NCBI RefSeq assembly: GCF_010669225.1 | Contig: NZ_CP048627.1 | Location: 868,001 to 932,000, forward strand | DNA length: 64,000 bases | Origin: Megamonas funiformis | GTDB taxonomy: Bacteria > Bacillota > Negativicutes > Selenomonadales > Selenomonadaceae | Direction of reading: 5' to 3' | In this document: positions 29,648-35,702 of the stretch, in pieces | Numbering within the stretch: position 1 is the first letter of the stretch | Layout of the letters: each line of letters opens with the position of its first letter | Translations under genes and position numbers: made by a program | The notes under the pieces: model-generated | What the model was told of the DNA's origin: nothing | What the model saw: the letters and a program-made list of their open reading frames with translations, nothing else | Databases searched by the model: none

Positions 29648-30100
29648 ATGATTTTTGGCAATCTTAAATACGCAGATAAGTATGATTTTTTGACAGAAAA
29701 AATTAAAGCTTGTTTTACTTATGCAAAAGAACATGATTTAACTGCATATGAAAAAGGTAGTTATAAAATAAATGGCGATGAGTTTTTTGTTAATATCGAA
29801 AACTATGCTACAGTAAAACGTGAAGAGCGCTTTTGGGAAGCACATAAAAAATATATTGATGTGCATATGATTATTGAAGGCAAAGAAAGTATTGATGTGA
29901 GCTTTTGCGATGATATGCAAATAAAATCATTTGACGAAAATCGCGATTTTGTGGAATTAATAGGTGAAGAAAAAGCTAATGTTAACTTAATTAACAAAGG
30001 TGATTTTCTAATTTGTTATCCAGAAGATGCTCATCGTACTGCTATTATCTGTCAACAAAGTCAAACTATAAAAAAAGCTATCTTTAAAATTAAATTATAA
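29648..30100 (+). CDS. YhcH/YjgK/YiaL family protein
   Basis: A 150-residue beta-sandwich protein of the DUF386 family (related to EbgC and NanQ, linked to sugar and sialic-acid anomer handling). Hallmarks are WEAHKKYIDVHMIIEGKE and the C-terminal YPEDAHRTAI with the conserved histidine. No sugar catabolic genes adjoin, so a specific substrate cannot be given. AAGAGG precedes the ATG. Confidence 0.85.
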   Translation: MIFGNLKYADKYDFLTEKIKACFTYAKEHDLTAYEKGSYKINGDEFFVNIENYATVKREERFWEAHKKYIDVHMIIEGKESIDVSFCDDMQIKSFDENRDFVELIGEEKANVNLINKGDFLICYPEDAHRTAIICQQSQTIKKAIFKIKL

Positions 30101-30108
30101 GAAAAAAA

Positions 30109-30140
30109 TAGCATGCTTAGGATAATACTTAAGCATGCTA
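30109..30140 (-). terminator. Minus-strand terminator downstream of the orphan riboswitch RNA
   Basis: Perfect 11-bp arms 30109-30119 and 30130-30140 (TAGCATGCTTA and complement). The T run exists only on the minus strand (the A-rich stretch 30102-30108), so it stops leftward transcripts before they run antisense into the YhcH gene. It may also stabilise the 3' end of that gene's mRNA. Confidence 0.6.
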
Positions 30141-30232
30141 TAAGCATAATAATACAACAATATAATGATTAGTTTGGAATTTTGAGCAATGATTACTTTA
30201 TGTTTGCTGAAGACATAAAGTAAAACCGATAA

Positions 30233-30263
30233 ATAAAAAACCCCTTTTCGCTTTGAAAAGAGG
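30233..30263 (-). terminator. Riboswitch expression-platform terminator, minus strand
   Basis: On the minus strand a 9-bp stem (CCTCTTTTC / GAAAAGGGG, one wobble pair) is followed directly by a run of T. It lies about 45 bases after the end of the minus-strand cobalamin aptamer, the usual place for a riboswitch-controlled terminator. Confidence 0.75.
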
Positions 30264-30305
30264 TGAATAGACACATTGAGTAAATTCTAAAATTTACTGT
30301 CTAAT

Positions 30306-30530
30306 CTCCTCCCCATCGCTCGCAGGTATGGCAATTAAAATAAATTAATTGCACACGGTGATTGTTAATCAGGCAGTTCTCCTGACTCGAGTTCATTACT
30401 ATATCCAAGCCTTCCCAGTTTCCCAGTGACATAAATTTGGATAAGTTCCCTCATACAGTGGCGGGACCGTTTCAGCTTAATAATAAATTACGTACTGAAT
30501 TCCCTATTAAGTCCAAATGGACACCTGATT
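30306..30530 (-). promoter_or_regulatory. Cobalamin (AdoCbl-type) riboswitch aptamer, minus strand, no downstream gene
   Basis: Read on the minus strand it has the B12-box architecture in order: GGTGTCC then TTAATAGGGAA, the core CGGTCCCGCCACTGTA, CACTGGGAAACTGGGAAGG, the AGTCAGGAGAACTGCCT arm, and a closing ACCTGCGAGCGATGGGGAGG. Every conserved element of the plus-strand copy is matched. Downstream (leftwards) there are only two terminators, and the next minus-strand gene is uvrB more than 700 bases away with an opposite-strand gene in between. It is either a decayed leader or a regulator of a non-coding RNA. Confidence 0.88.
30409..30432. repeat. 24-base inverted copy shared by the two riboswitches (left arm)
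   Basis: Exact reverse complement of 30771-30794 (core CACTGGGAAACTGGGAAGG). The identity extends beyond the strictly conserved aptamer bases, suggesting that one aptamer arose by duplication or conversion from the other. Confidence 0.8.
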
Positions 30531-30556
30531 CATTGAACTATATTCAGTTCTTTTTT

Positions 30557-30585
30557 AGAATATCACTATATAGAATTTGTGTCAA
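30557..30585 (-). promoter_or_regulatory. Minus-strand promoter of the orphan riboswitch
   Basis: On the minus strand: TTGACA (plus coordinates 30580-30585), 17-base spacer, TATTCT (30557-30562). The start would be near 30550, just before the aptamer. Confidence 0.6.
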
Positions 30586-30629: not shown

Positions 30630-30659
30630 TTGACAAATATATAAAATAAAAAGTATAAT
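30630..30659 (+). promoter_or_regulatory. Promoter of the plus-strand cobalamin riboswitch leader
   Basis: Perfect TTGACA (30630-30635) and perfect TATAAT (30654-30659) at an 18-base spacing. It is divergent from the minus-strand promoter, with the two -35 boxes about 45 bases apart. Confidence 0.8.
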
Positions 30660-30684
30660 AAAGGCGACAAGTTGATAATGAAAC

Positions 30685-30874
30685 CTTATAGGTGCATATT
30701 TATGCTTAATAGGGAAGACGGTTAAAATCCGGCACGGTCCCGCCGCTGTAAAGAGGAGCAAACTTCATGAATGTCACTGGGAAACTGGGAAGGCGAAGTG
30801 AGCAATGATACTGAGTCAGAAGAACTGCCTATAAGAAGCATCGTCGTTTGACCTGCGAGAGACGGGGAGAGATG
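30685..30874 (+). promoter_or_regulatory. Cobalamin (AdoCbl-type) riboswitch aptamer upstream of mutA
   Basis: Ordered conserved elements: AGGTGC, TTAATAGGGAAGACGGT with its partner CCGGCAC, core GGTCCCGCCGCTGTA, CACTGGGAAACTGGGAAGG, AGTCAGAAGAACTGCCT, and closing GACCTGCGAGAGACGGGGAG. It points at mutA-mutB-meaB, whose mutase uses adenosylcobalamin. A terminator follows at 30926-30963. Confidence 0.95.
30771..30794. repeat. 24-base inverted copy shared by the two riboswitches (right arm)
   Basis: Partner of 30409-30432, inside the plus-strand aptamer; the copies are about 340 bases apart in opposite orientation. Confidence 0.8.
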
Positions 30875-30925
30875 TAGTAGAATGTATATGTTTTTTATAC
30901 ATGTAAATTCTAATTATAATTTTCT

Positions 30926-30963
30926 ACCGTTTTTCATATATTGTTTATGAAAAGCGGTTTTTC
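30926..30963 (+). terminator. Riboswitch expression-platform terminator, plus strand
   Basis: 12-bp stem (arms 30927-30938 and 30946-30957, CCGTTTTTCATA against TATGAAAAGCGG with one wobble) followed by TTTTT, about 50 bases after the aptamer. Confidence 0.8.
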
Positions 30964-31153
30964 TGTTTATAGAGATAATCCATGAAGATGGCTCATGATT
31001 ATCTTAAGCAAGTGCCATCGATGTATCATATTAATTTGTTGTAAATTATGTTTAATTTACTGAAAAATTTAATCATTATTATGATTAGCATAAATACTTG
31101 AATAATTTAATAAAAATGGTAAATAATATTTGGGGAATATATATTACCAATCC

Positions 31154-31184
31154 AGCCATCACTAAATTTAGTGATGGCTTTTTT
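31154..31184 (+). terminator. Second strong terminator between the riboswitch and mutA
   Basis: Perfect 26-base palindrome (arms 31154-31166 and 31167-31179, AGCCATCACTAAA and complement) followed by TTTTTT. It lies about 190 bases beyond the riboswitch terminator and 143 bases before mutA. The stretch between the two terminators holds only a possible 20-codon frame (30982-31044) with a poor ribosome-binding site; 31185-31326 is AT-rich with no clear promoter. Confidence 0.85.
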
Positions 31185-31326
31185 ATAAATTTTATATTTA
31201 ATATCTAGGTAGGAGGAACTCGAACCATTTATTAGATATATAAGAGTATTTATTAACTATTCAATAATAGTATTAAATTATCCCCTTAAATGAAAATGCA
31301 GAAGTAGAGAAGGGAAATTATTATAT

Positions 31327-33519
31327 ATGGAACAAGATAAAACACTTGGCGAAGAAATTCGACAAGAAGAACAACAAGAACAAGATATTCCTGCTGTTAC
31401 TTTTGATGAGTTTGAAATTCCTTCATATGAAGAATGGAAAGAAGCTGTAGTGGCATTATTAAAGGGAAAACCTTTTGAAAAAAGTATGTTTACTAAAACT
31501 TATGAAGGTATTACATTAAACCCTATTTATCGTATGGAAGATTTAGAAGGGTTAACTCATAATAAGACTTATCCAGGAATGGAAAGTAATTTACGTGGAG
31601 CTAATGCTAGTGGTTATATACATAAACCATGGACAATAGCTCAAGAGTGTGATGCTAAAACTCCTAGTGAAGCCAATGAAATGGTAAAATATGAATTATT
31701 AAAAGGTTCAACAGCTGCAAGTGTAGTTTTGGATACAGCAACACGTAAAGGTTATGATGTAGATACAGCTAATAAAGAAGAAATCGCAGATATTGGTGTT
31801 TCTTTATCGACTTTATCAGATGTAAATAAATTATTAGATGATGTTGATTTAGAAAAATTTGAAATTGATATTTATGCAGGTGCTTCTAATATAGCATTAC
31901 TTTCTGCTGTTGCAGTGGTGTGTGAACAGAAAAAATTATCACTAAAAAAACTTCATGGTGCTATTACAGCAGATCCTATTGGAGAATTAGCTTTAGATGG
32001 AAAGCTTACACGACCTCTTGATGAATATTATGATGAAATGGCTCATAGTATTTGTTGGGCAGAAAAATTTGCACCAGAATTAAAGACTGTAGTAGTAAAT
32101 ACAGATGTTTATCACAATGGTGGTGCAAATGATATCCAAGAAGTAGCATATGCCATGAATGAAGCTGTAACATATATGAAATCTATGGAACGACGTGGCA
32201 TTGATGTGAATACTTTTTGTCGTCATTTACGTTTTCATTTTAGTATAGGTGCAAATTTTTTTATGGAAATTGCTAAATTACGCAGTGTGAAAATGATTTG
32301 GGCTCAAATTGTTAAAAATTGTGGTGGAGATGATATAGCTCAAAAAATTAATATATATGTAAGTACATCGTCTTTTTGTCAAACAGTATATGATCCTTAT
32401 GTAAATTTACTTCGTGCAGCTACACAATCATTTTCTGCTGTTGTTGGTGGTATGGATGGTATGTTTGTAAAACCATTTGACCATTGTATACGTCCTAGTG
32501 ATGAATTTTCTCGTCGTATTGCACGAAATATTCAAATTATGGAGCAACATGAATTTAATTTTATTCAACCAATAGACCCTGCTGGTGGTAGTTGGTATCT
32601 TGAACCATTGACAGAAGAGTTTACTCAAAAGGCTTGGGCAAAATTTCAAGAAATTGAAGCTCATGGTGGTTTAATAAAAGCTTTAGAAAATAATACTGTG
32701 CAGATAGCTATTAATGAAGTATTACAAGCTCGTTTTAAAAATTTAGCAACAAGAAAAGATCGTGCTGTTGGTAATAATATGTATCCAAATATGACTGAAA
32801 AATTATTGGAAGTACCAGAAATTAATTTTGATAAAATTATAGCAGATAGAAAAATGGCAATTAAAGTTAATGTAAAAGTACGTGACAATGATTATGTTAA
32901 ATTATTATTATCGGAAATTGGTAAACGTGATTTTAGTGAACATGGTTCATTAATAAATACAGTTAAACAGACTATTAAAGCGGGTGCCACTTTAGGTGAA
33001 ATATCTACAGCACTTACAGGAGAGGCGACAGGTGAAGTTATAGAAGCTATTTTGCCACATCGCTGGACTGAAAGATATGAACAACTTCGTCATCGCACAG
33101 AAAAGTATCTAGAAAAAACAGGGGAAAATGTAAATATTTTCCTTGCTAATATGGGACCTATTCCACAGCATAAAGCACGTGCAGATTTTGTTACTTCATT
33201 TATGCAAGTAGCAGCATTTAATGTACTTACTAATAATGGTTTTCCAACAGTAGAAGAAGCTGTACAAGCAGCTATTGATTCAAATGCTGATGTAGCTATT
33301 GTTTGTTCTACAGATTCAACTTATCCAGAACTCGCGCCAGCTGTTACTTCTGGTATTAAGGCTGTAAAACCTAGTATGAAAGTTTTTTTAGCAGGTGCAC
33401 CAACACCAGAATTAAAAAAAGCATGCGATGAAGCGGGTATGGACGATTATATAAGTGTTCGTTCTAATTGCTATGAAACTTTACTTCGTATGCAAAAAGA
33501 AAAGGGGATGATTGAATAA
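31327..33519 (+). CDS. mutA: Methylmalonyl-CoA mutase small (beta) subunit
   Basis: Non-catalytic partner of the AdoCbl-dependent mutase that interconverts succinyl-CoA and methylmalonyl-CoA in propionate formation. At 730 residues it has a TIM-barrel domain (about 35-560; [33 protein letters not shown]) and a degenerate C-terminal B12-like domain (about 600-730) in which the cobalamin-binding DxHxxG is absent: the equivalent stretch reads [12 protein letters not shown]. This loss is typical of the small subunit. It overlaps mutB by one base (TAATG). It lies downstream of the plus-strand riboswitch. Confidence 0.94.
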
Positions 33520-35702
33520 TGTCTAAAATACCAGATTTTACACAAATTCCTTTTCAGCAAGCAATACAGAGTGAGGTCGCTTTTGCTAAATGGAAAGAAA
33601 GTTTAAAAGCAGAAACTGGAAAATCTTTTGAGGAAAATTTTTATCGCACTATGGAGCAAATAGATGTAGCACCACTTTATGATGAAAATGTTTATAAAGA
33701 TTGTAATCATTTAGATTTTGTAGCAGGTATTCCACCATTTTTGCGTGGTCCATATGCAACTATGTATGTAACAAGACCATGGACAGTACGACAATATGCA
33801 GGTTTTTCTACAGCAGAAGAATCAAATGCTTTTTATCGTAGAAATCTTGCAGCTGGGCAAAAAGGTTTATCTATTGCTTTTGACTTAGCAACACATAGAG
33901 GCTATGATTCAGACCATCCTCGTGTAGTAGGAGATGTTGGTAAAGCAGGAGTAGCAGTTGACTCTATTTTAGATATGGAAATATTATTTAAAGGCATTCC
34001 ACTTGATCAGATGTCAGTATCCATGACTATGAATGGTGCAGTACTTCCTATCATGGCTTTTTATATTTTGGCTGGTGAAGAACAAGGTGTAGATAAAGCT
34101 GTTATGGCAGGTACTATTCAAAATGATATTTTAAAAGAGTTCATGGTACGTAATACTTATATTTATCCACCAGCAGCTTCAATGAGAATTATTGGTGATA
34201 TTTTTGAGTATACTTCTAAATATATGCCTAAATTTAATAGTATATCTATTTCTGGTTATCATATGCAAGAAGCAGGTGCAACAGCAGATATTGAATTAGG
34301 TTATACATTAGCTGATGGTCTTGAATATTTGCGTACAGGTACAGAACATGGATTAACCATTGACCAATTTGCACCACGATTATCTTTCTTTTGGGCTATG
34401 GGGAAAAATTATTTCATGGAAATTGCTAAAATGCGTGCTGGTCGTATGCTTTGGGCTAAAATTGTCAATTCTTTTCATCCTAAAAAGACAAAATCTATGG
34501 CTTTACGTACACATTCTCAGACTTCTGGTTGGAGTCTTACAGAACAAGATCCATTTAATAATATTACTCGAACTTGTATTGAAGCTATGGCAGCAGCTCT
34601 TGGTCATACACAATCTTTACACACAAATGCACTAGATGAAGCTATAGCTCTTCCTACAGACTTTTCAGCTCGTATTGCTCGTAATACGCAATTATATATT
34701 CAAGATGAAACTAAAGTATGTAAGGTAATTGACCCATGGGGTGGTTCGTATTATGTAGAATTTTTAACAAATCAACTCATAAAAAAAGCTTGGGCACATA
34801 TTCAAGAAATTGAAGCTCTCGGTGGTATGTCTAAAGCAATTGATACAGGTCTGCCTAAAATGCGTATAGAAGAAGCAGCAGCACGTCGTCAAGCTCATAT
34901 TGATTCTGGTAGTGAAAAAATTGTTGGCGTAAATTATCTTCGCTTAGATAAAGAAGATCCACTTGATATTTTAGAAGTTGATAATACAGCAGTTCGTTTA
35001 GCTCAGATTGAGAGACTTAAAAAATTACGTGCAAATCGTGATAATGACAAAGTTCGTTCTTGTCTTGAAGCTATCACTCGTTCTATGGAAACAGGTGAAG
35101 GTAATTTATTAGAATTAGCTGTAGAAGCAGCAAGAGCACGTGCATCTAAAGGTGAAATTTCTGATGCAGTAGAAAAAGTTTGTGGTAGACATAAAGCAAT
35201 TATTCGTTCTATATCTGGTGTATATAGTAGTGAATTTAGTGATGATGATGTTATTAAAGAAGTTCGTGATATGACAGATAAGTTTGAAGTGGAATATGGT
35301 CGTCGTCCTCGTATCTATATTGCTAAAATGGGACAAGATGGTCATGATCGTGGAGCAAAAGTAATTGCTACTGCTTTTGCTGATATGGGTTATGATGTTG
35401 ATATTGGTCCATTATTCCAAACACCAGAAGAAGCTGCTCAAGATGCTGTTGATAATGATGTGCATATTGTAGGTATGAGTTCCTTGGCAGCTGGTCATAA
35501 AACTTTAATGCCACAACTCATTGAAGAATTGAAAAAACGTGGTCGTGAAGATATTATGGTAGTAATTGGTGGGGTAATACCTGCTCAAGATTATGATTTC
35601 TTATATGAACATGGTGCTGCTGCCATTTTTGGACCAGGTACGATAATTCCTGTTTGTGCAAAAAAAGTATTGGAGCTTCTTAACAAACGTCTGGAGGACT
35701 AA
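33519..35702 (+). CDS. mutB: Methylmalonyl-CoA mutase large (alpha) subunit
   Basis: Catalytic AdoCbl-binding subunit, 727 residues. N-terminal substrate barrel with [25 protein letters not shown] (family block, shown here in part), [16 protein letters not shown], and a C-terminal cobalamin domain with intact DxHxxG (D607, H609, G612 in [10 protein letters not shown]) supplying the lower axial histidine, followed by [12 protein letters not shown] and [11 protein letters not shown]. Coupled to mutA and followed by meaB. Confidence 0.97.

Follow-up and report, generated by a model that had tools for sequence, protein, structure and literature searches.

A gene-less cobalamin riboswitch in Megamonas funiformis probably gates a small RNA directed against methylmalonyl-CoA mutase mRNA

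What does a cobalamin riboswitch control when no gene follows it? The question is raised by a minus-strand element in the stretch of 64,000 nucleotides of Megamonas funiformis DNA that we analysed (the window), in a genome that holds nine cobalamin riboswitches in total. From sequence comparison we conclude that the element is very probably a trans-acting small RNA (sRNA) gated by its own riboswitch, which would be made without B12 and would block translation of a methylmalonyl-CoA mutase (MCM). We computed its anatomy, conservation, riboswitch coupling, complementarity to the target and co-variation.

The original prediction had described a complete B12 aptamer with its own promoter, an expression-platform terminator, a back-up terminator and no gene on the same strand before yhcH, and all of these features were recovered (Table 1). 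The covariance search that it had proposed aligned the aptamer with the full RF00174 (Cobalamin) model (positions 1-189, E 3.8e-22), at a score far above the gathering cut-off of 31.5 bits. The promoter-like sequence has 10 of 12 matches and a TG ahead of the -10 hexamer, and in the ortholog of a congeneric species (G001) the equivalent position reads TTGACA-N17-TATTAT. Four terminator-like sites were seen around the element where 0.6 would be expected, and sequence prediction provides the sRNA with both a promoter and an intrinsic terminator. From the aptamer to position 30100, where yhcH ends, the minus strand has no open reading frame of at least 60 amino acids. The T2 unit ends at about 30102, so that there is no antisense overlap with this convergent neighbour. 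A small peptide was considered and rejected, since the sole short reading frame (MSSANIK) has no ATG in the congener. The yhcH gene itself (29648-30100, plus strand) found its best relatives in Clostridia, mostly at 45-59% identity, and none in close kin; G001 has its own yhcH copy (L124, 1979-2443), and horizontal transfer is possible.

Table 1. Features of the sRNA unit and of the divergent mutAB leader, in window coordinates.
Feature	Position	Strand	Remarks
sRNA promoter, sigma-70 type	30557..30585	-	TTGACA-N17-TATTCT; near-identical hexamers and equal spacing in congener
Cobalamin riboswitch aptamer	30355..30543	-	RF00174, 94.2 bits, full length
Predicted antiterminator, 5' strand GGGGAGGAG	30306..30314	-	Overlaps predicted L13 kissing-loop sequence
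T1, expression-platform terminator, predicted B12-dependent	30240..30264	-	-11.6 kcal/mol; hairpin identical in congener
Conserved core hairpin, loop CUUCAGCAA	30193..30223	-	z -4.2; one compensatory pair between two congeners
Seed 1 UCAUUGCUCA	30183..30192	-	Antisense to start codon region UGAGCAAUGA of distant MCM gene
Seed 2 region	30148..30182	-	AAAUUCC/CUAA pair with MCM ribosome-binding region; next stretch pairs upstream
UAUAUUGUUGUAUUAUUAUG	30144..30163	-	20-nt contiguous complement (1 G-U) to 5' UTR of CoA-transferase, first gene of MCM operon
T2, sRNA terminator	30108..30141	-	Hairpin and T tract; different hairpin in equivalent place in congener
mutAB leader promoter	30630-30659	+	TTGACA-N18-TATAAT, consensus hexamers
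Divergent cobalamin riboswitch, mutAB leader	30673..30846	+	RF00174, 92.8 bits; absent from the original prediction
mutAB leader terminators, two successive	30926-30958, 31154-31179	+	
mutA, methylmalonyl-CoA mutase subunit	31327..33519	+	PF01642
mutB, methylmalonyl-CoA mutase with B12-binding domain	33519..35702	+	PF01642 and PF02310

Beyond T1 the locus has a conserved core. The congener G001 carries the unit at 78% identity between a thioredoxin-like (trxA-like) gene upstream and an FGGY sugar kinase downstream, neighbours that differ from those in the window, and retains promoter, aptamer, T1 and a block of about 65 nt after T1; T2 occurs in both species with sequences that are unlike. Folding gives a core hairpin of 11 bp with a 9-nt loop as the sole hairpin ahead of T2. 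Its pairing is preserved between the congeners through a change from G-C to A-U, and its loop motif UUCAG(C) is common to many genera. The hairpin is followed by the unpaired seed 1, identical in both congeners, and cobalamin loci of other genera bear CAUUGCUCAU past their terminators. No Rfam match to the post-T1 core was found (E up to 0.5 and 1). RNAalifold on a MAFFT alignment gave no consensus fold because the hairpin arms differ in length, and the search profile R1 is therefore based on sequence only.

R1 covers the core between T1 and T2 and contains no aptamer sequence. It matched 141 of the 189 genomes of the family and 22 of its 30 genera, with up to six copies in one genome, and a class-level sample yielded matches in four further families. 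Scanning 60 matched regions with cmscan revealed a cobalamin riboswitch in 58 of them (20/20 in a set with none of the R1 training genomes, 20/20 in a set with three of them, and 18/20 in another). Two weak class-level matches (G031 and G332) lack both a nearby riboswitch and a matching MCM start, which indicates that R1 yields some false matches. A strict scanner detected a T1-like terminator in 18 of 24 loci and a T2-like one in 18 of 24. One match to the core (G150) sits in unrelated sequence and was not counted as a homolog, and pattern matches in G113, G180 and G182 were left out of the homolog set. A scan of viral contigs gave no matches, and no description of such an RNA was found among the papers of the literature collection searched. 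Tandem sRNA cores or whole riboswitch-sRNA units were observed in L219, L212, L222, L237, L239 and L260; of the tandem copies in G007, one reads CACUGCUCAU and the next CAUUGCUCAU.

The original prediction had named no target; based on complementarity, we propose the MCM mRNA. The core seed with CAUUGCUCAU is complementary to AUGAGCAAUG at the start codon of this mRNA, and a second block pairs near the Shine-Dalgarno sequence. The gene lies about 1 Mb from the sRNA locus in an operon that encodes a CoA-transferase, the MCM large subunit and a B12-binding small subunit, together with MeaB-like GTPase, epimerase-like and decarboxylase-like genes, the last three named by eye from sequence. The seed 1 complement UGAGCAAUGA occurs 7 times in the genome of the window's species (G000) and 16 times in G001, each count including one match that is the sRNA locus read from the opposite strand. 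In both species just one sense copy falls on a translation start, that of the gene for a 550-aa MCM, AUGAGCAAUGAA. The predicted duplex spans the MCM start codon region and the Shine-Dalgarno sequence, with seed 1 of the window missing the A of AUG. Among gene starts sampled from the retrieved stretches, not genome-wide, MCM took first place in both species (75 starts for G000, 50 for G001). Second in G000 came the CoA-transferase that heads the MCM operon, whose 5' UTR holds a 20-nt contiguous complement to the 3' part of the sRNA, against a mean of 9.7 and a maximum of 16 in shuffles. The equivalent leader of G001 also contains a site, though a weaker one. Across 46 genomes, native sRNA-MCM pairing had a median z of -3.65 against shuffled targets, and exchanging the two congeneric sRNAs changed the predicted energy little in one direction.

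Complementarity at a start codon can have causes other than selection on the target. The MCM start reads AUGAGCAAU, corresponding to the conserved protein sequence MSNE, in most genera, including genomes in which the sRNA was not detected (e.g. G019 and G078), so that the match alone is weak evidence and need not reflect target selection. In some lineages both partners differ. Five species of genus g3 have the MCM start AUGAGCAAC (AAC) and the sRNA seed GUUGCUCAU, and G003 of the same genus has an AAU start and the seed CAUUGCUCAU. The start is AUGAGCACU (ACU) in G183, where both sRNA copies read AGUGCUCAU, and g16 species with an AAU start carry the seed AUUGCUCAU. Where the third codon is ACG or ACA, as in parts of g16 and g44, just the 7-nt UGCUCAU of seed 1 matches, and the co-variation is therefore imperfect. 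The second block is UUUCAUUCAGU across many genera, CUUUUCAGUU for g8 and CUUUUCUUCG for g17; several lineages have matching sequence upstream of the Shine-Dalgarno. For 19 representatives, none of 100,000 permuted sets of pairings was as good as the native total energy, a result uncorrected for relatedness. A conserved unpaired seed thus co-varies with the ribosome-binding site of its target.

The presence of sRNA and target was also compared across genomes. Of the genomes in which MCM was not found, most (G010, G073, G014, G022 and G198-G200) are not R1-positive, while G074, from the same genus as G010 and G073, has both MCM and an R1 match; the genome of G158 is incomplete in this comparison. 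Genus g12 has the sRNA and lacks the 550-aa MCM (MCM550). In this genus the remaining mutase pair is headed by mutA, which starts with AUGAGCAAU (ATGAGCAAT) in four of five genomes and with AUGAGCGAU in the other one. The mutA starts of three other families, AUGAAACAA, AUGCUACAA or AUGAAAGAA, show no match to the seed. In G004 (L257), a 99% complete genome and an exception to this pattern, the riboswitch comes with a weak sRNA core, yet MCM was not detected; its sRNA could be a relic or act on a different target.

The surroundings of the unit vary. In several genera it directly precedes mutA, a CbiK-like (cbiK) or a TonB receptor-like gene, and in others, as in the window, nothing lies close. 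The original prediction had offered, as an alternative, a riboswitch leader abandoned after loss of its B12 gene. Such a history would fit the lack of a following gene on the minus strand and the similar units that stand ahead of mutA, cbiK or a TonB receptor gene elsewhere in the family. However, a second species with different neighbours retains every part of the unit (promoter, aptamer, antiterminator, T1, hairpin, seed and T2), the post-T1 core is conserved in 22 genera, and the seeds co-vary with the MCM start, which makes abandonment extremely improbable. Synteny, which had been suggested as a check, shows different neighbours in the congener; some relatives do have a B12 gene after the unit, but separated from the riboswitch by the hairpin, the seed and, in most cases, T2. 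Since riboswitch, core and T2 directly precede mutA or cbiK in several genera, the core could also be a second cis-acting leader element, a tandem attenuator rather than a separate sRNA. This explanation is very unlikely to be right, as nothing follows closely in the window and G001, the seed has no match at the mutA starts of three other families, and the complementarity is with a distant gene. As a separate observation, the sRNA is followed in four genera by a conserved membrane protein, MDTAIIxxALIGLMYxAYRG... (L211, L215, L226, L227, L320, L323, L336 and L340), possibly a transporter tied to B12 or propionate metabolism.

Divergent from the sRNA unit, the plus-strand riboswitch of the window precedes mutA, mutB and meaB. 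It is unusual for a B12-dependent enzyme to be preceded by a B12 riboswitch, and we counted against the sRNA model that mutAB, likewise B12-dependent, lies behind an OFF riboswitch. The mutAB leader (30630-31327) has a hairpin between its two terminators and so mirrors the sRNA unit minus the seed; a relic core was sought in this plus-strand leader and not found. Its aptamer contains UGAGCAAUGA (30799-30808), a perfect 10-nt complement of the seed, possibly by chance, as GCAAUGA resembles a conserved aptamer motif. Pairing of the seed with its own aptamer through this motif was set aside after inspection by eye, several aptamers fitting only with mismatches. Elsewhere, L125 (5179-5350, 11423-11609 and 11657-11828, minus strand) has two equal-scoring cobalamin riboswitches near TonB-receptor-like genes, one of them followed by a degenerate third copy of 35 bits.

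How the riboswitch would gate the sRNA can be read from its expression platform, for which a terminator and an alternative antiterminator are predicted. In both congeners GGGGAGGAG can form a duplex with the T1 5' arm (-9.3 and -12.6 kcal/mol). It also overlaps the sequence expected to kiss L5 (UCCC), a contact with L13 read from the sequence only, and B12 binding should therefore favour T1. In Bacillus subtilis reporters, corrinoid addition repressed GFP for 38 of the 86 cobalamin riboswitches tested, and the repressing set includes Negativicutes riboswitches, that of Veillonella parvula mutA among them (PMC9600662). For the direction of switching, the transcript ends, the translational repression and its physiological purpose, we infer the following course. 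Minus-strand transcription would start at about 30550. If B12 is bound, the GGGGA of the antiterminator would be hidden by the kissing loop, T1 would form and only a short leader of about 310 nt would result. Without B12, the antiterminator would form and the polymerase would continue to T2, giving about 450 nt and thereby the core with hairpin, seed 1 and seed 2. The full sRNA is thus expected when corrinoid is scarce, with read-through only in the absence of B12. Its seeds would pair with the MCM start codon and Shine-Dalgarno region and block translation, and in the window's species the sRNA may also pair with the 5' UTR of the CoA-transferase, the first gene of the operon. Blocking MCM would spare the scarce cofactor or avoid useless apo-enzyme.

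Parts of this logic are familiar. RyhB-type sRNAs are made on cofactor scarcity, pair at ribosome-binding sites and shut down cofactor-needing enzymes; RyhB is controlled by the protein Fur, whereas here the sensor sits within the same RNA. EutX of Enterococcus is an sRNA gated by a cobalamin riboswitch with the same logic as Rli55 of Listeria. In Rli55, a B12 aptamer with its terminator controls a non-coding RNA that is made at low B12, with the outcome that B12-dependent enzymes are not expressed without their cofactor (PMC8079631). The locus described here likewise places a B12 aptamer and a terminator before a non-coding RNA, but Rli55 and EutX sequester the antiterminator protein EutV via ANTAR elements, in contrast to a hairpin and an antisense seed against an enzyme mRNA. 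An ANTAR dual-hairpin element was not seen in the core by folding, which gave one hairpin before T2. Were the sRNA nevertheless to sequester a regulatory protein as Rli55 and EutX do with EutV, the MCM match would be fortuitous. The gating anatomy is the same as in Rli55 (PMC8079631), and base pairing with MCM does not account for the conserved UUCAGC loop. The single hairpin, the unpaired seed as the most conserved part, tracking changes at the MCM start codon, and the permutation test (0/100,000) leave sequestration only a slight chance.

Other Listeria RNAs resemble the proposed sRNA in different respects. In AspocR, a B12 riboswitch terminates an antisense RNA that is full length without B12 and is believed to work in trans, with base pairing as the probable mechanism (PMC8079631). 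AspocR is cis-encoded antisense to a next-door regulator gene, whereas the sRNA here is short and its target a distant enzyme mRNA. The SAM riboswitches SreA and SreB illustrate how riboswitch RNA can base-pair in trans with an mRNA leader and block translation (PMC8079631). SreA is the ligand-terminated product; here, in contrast, the terminator precedes the active part, which is predicted to be made without ligand. The precedents Rli55/EutX and AspocR therefore hold for parts of the logic and not for target and mechanism, and the same is true of SreA.

The suggestion of a B12-gated small RNA in the original prediction is strongly supported on comparative grounds by conservation beyond T1, riboswitch coupling, the own terminator and seeds that co-vary with one target. 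More tentatively, and with a probability that we would place below even, the element represents a class-wide, undescribed sRNA family of riboswitch-gated antisense RNAs against MCM that may act as an isozyme switch. The idea of a switch arises because the sRNA often lies upstream of, or, as in the window, divergent from, riboswitch-controlled mutAB. Speculatively, corrinoid scarcity would turn MutAB on and the 550+134-aa mutase off; at loci in which one riboswitch stands ahead of both the sRNA core and mutAB, low B12 would induce MutAB and let the sRNA silence the second enzyme.

If the proposed model is true, the locus encodes an all-RNA cofactor-sparing circuit that combines sensor and effector in a single transcript and acts directly on the mRNA of a cofactor-using enzyme. 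The predicted base pairs are exact and testable in dozens of species. The sRNA is widespread in what we take to be the class Negativicutes, producers of propionate via methylmalonyl-CoA mutase, and would link B12 supply to propionate metabolism. It would also explain at least some orphan cobalamin riboswitches, and other orphan riboswitches may hide sRNAs as well.
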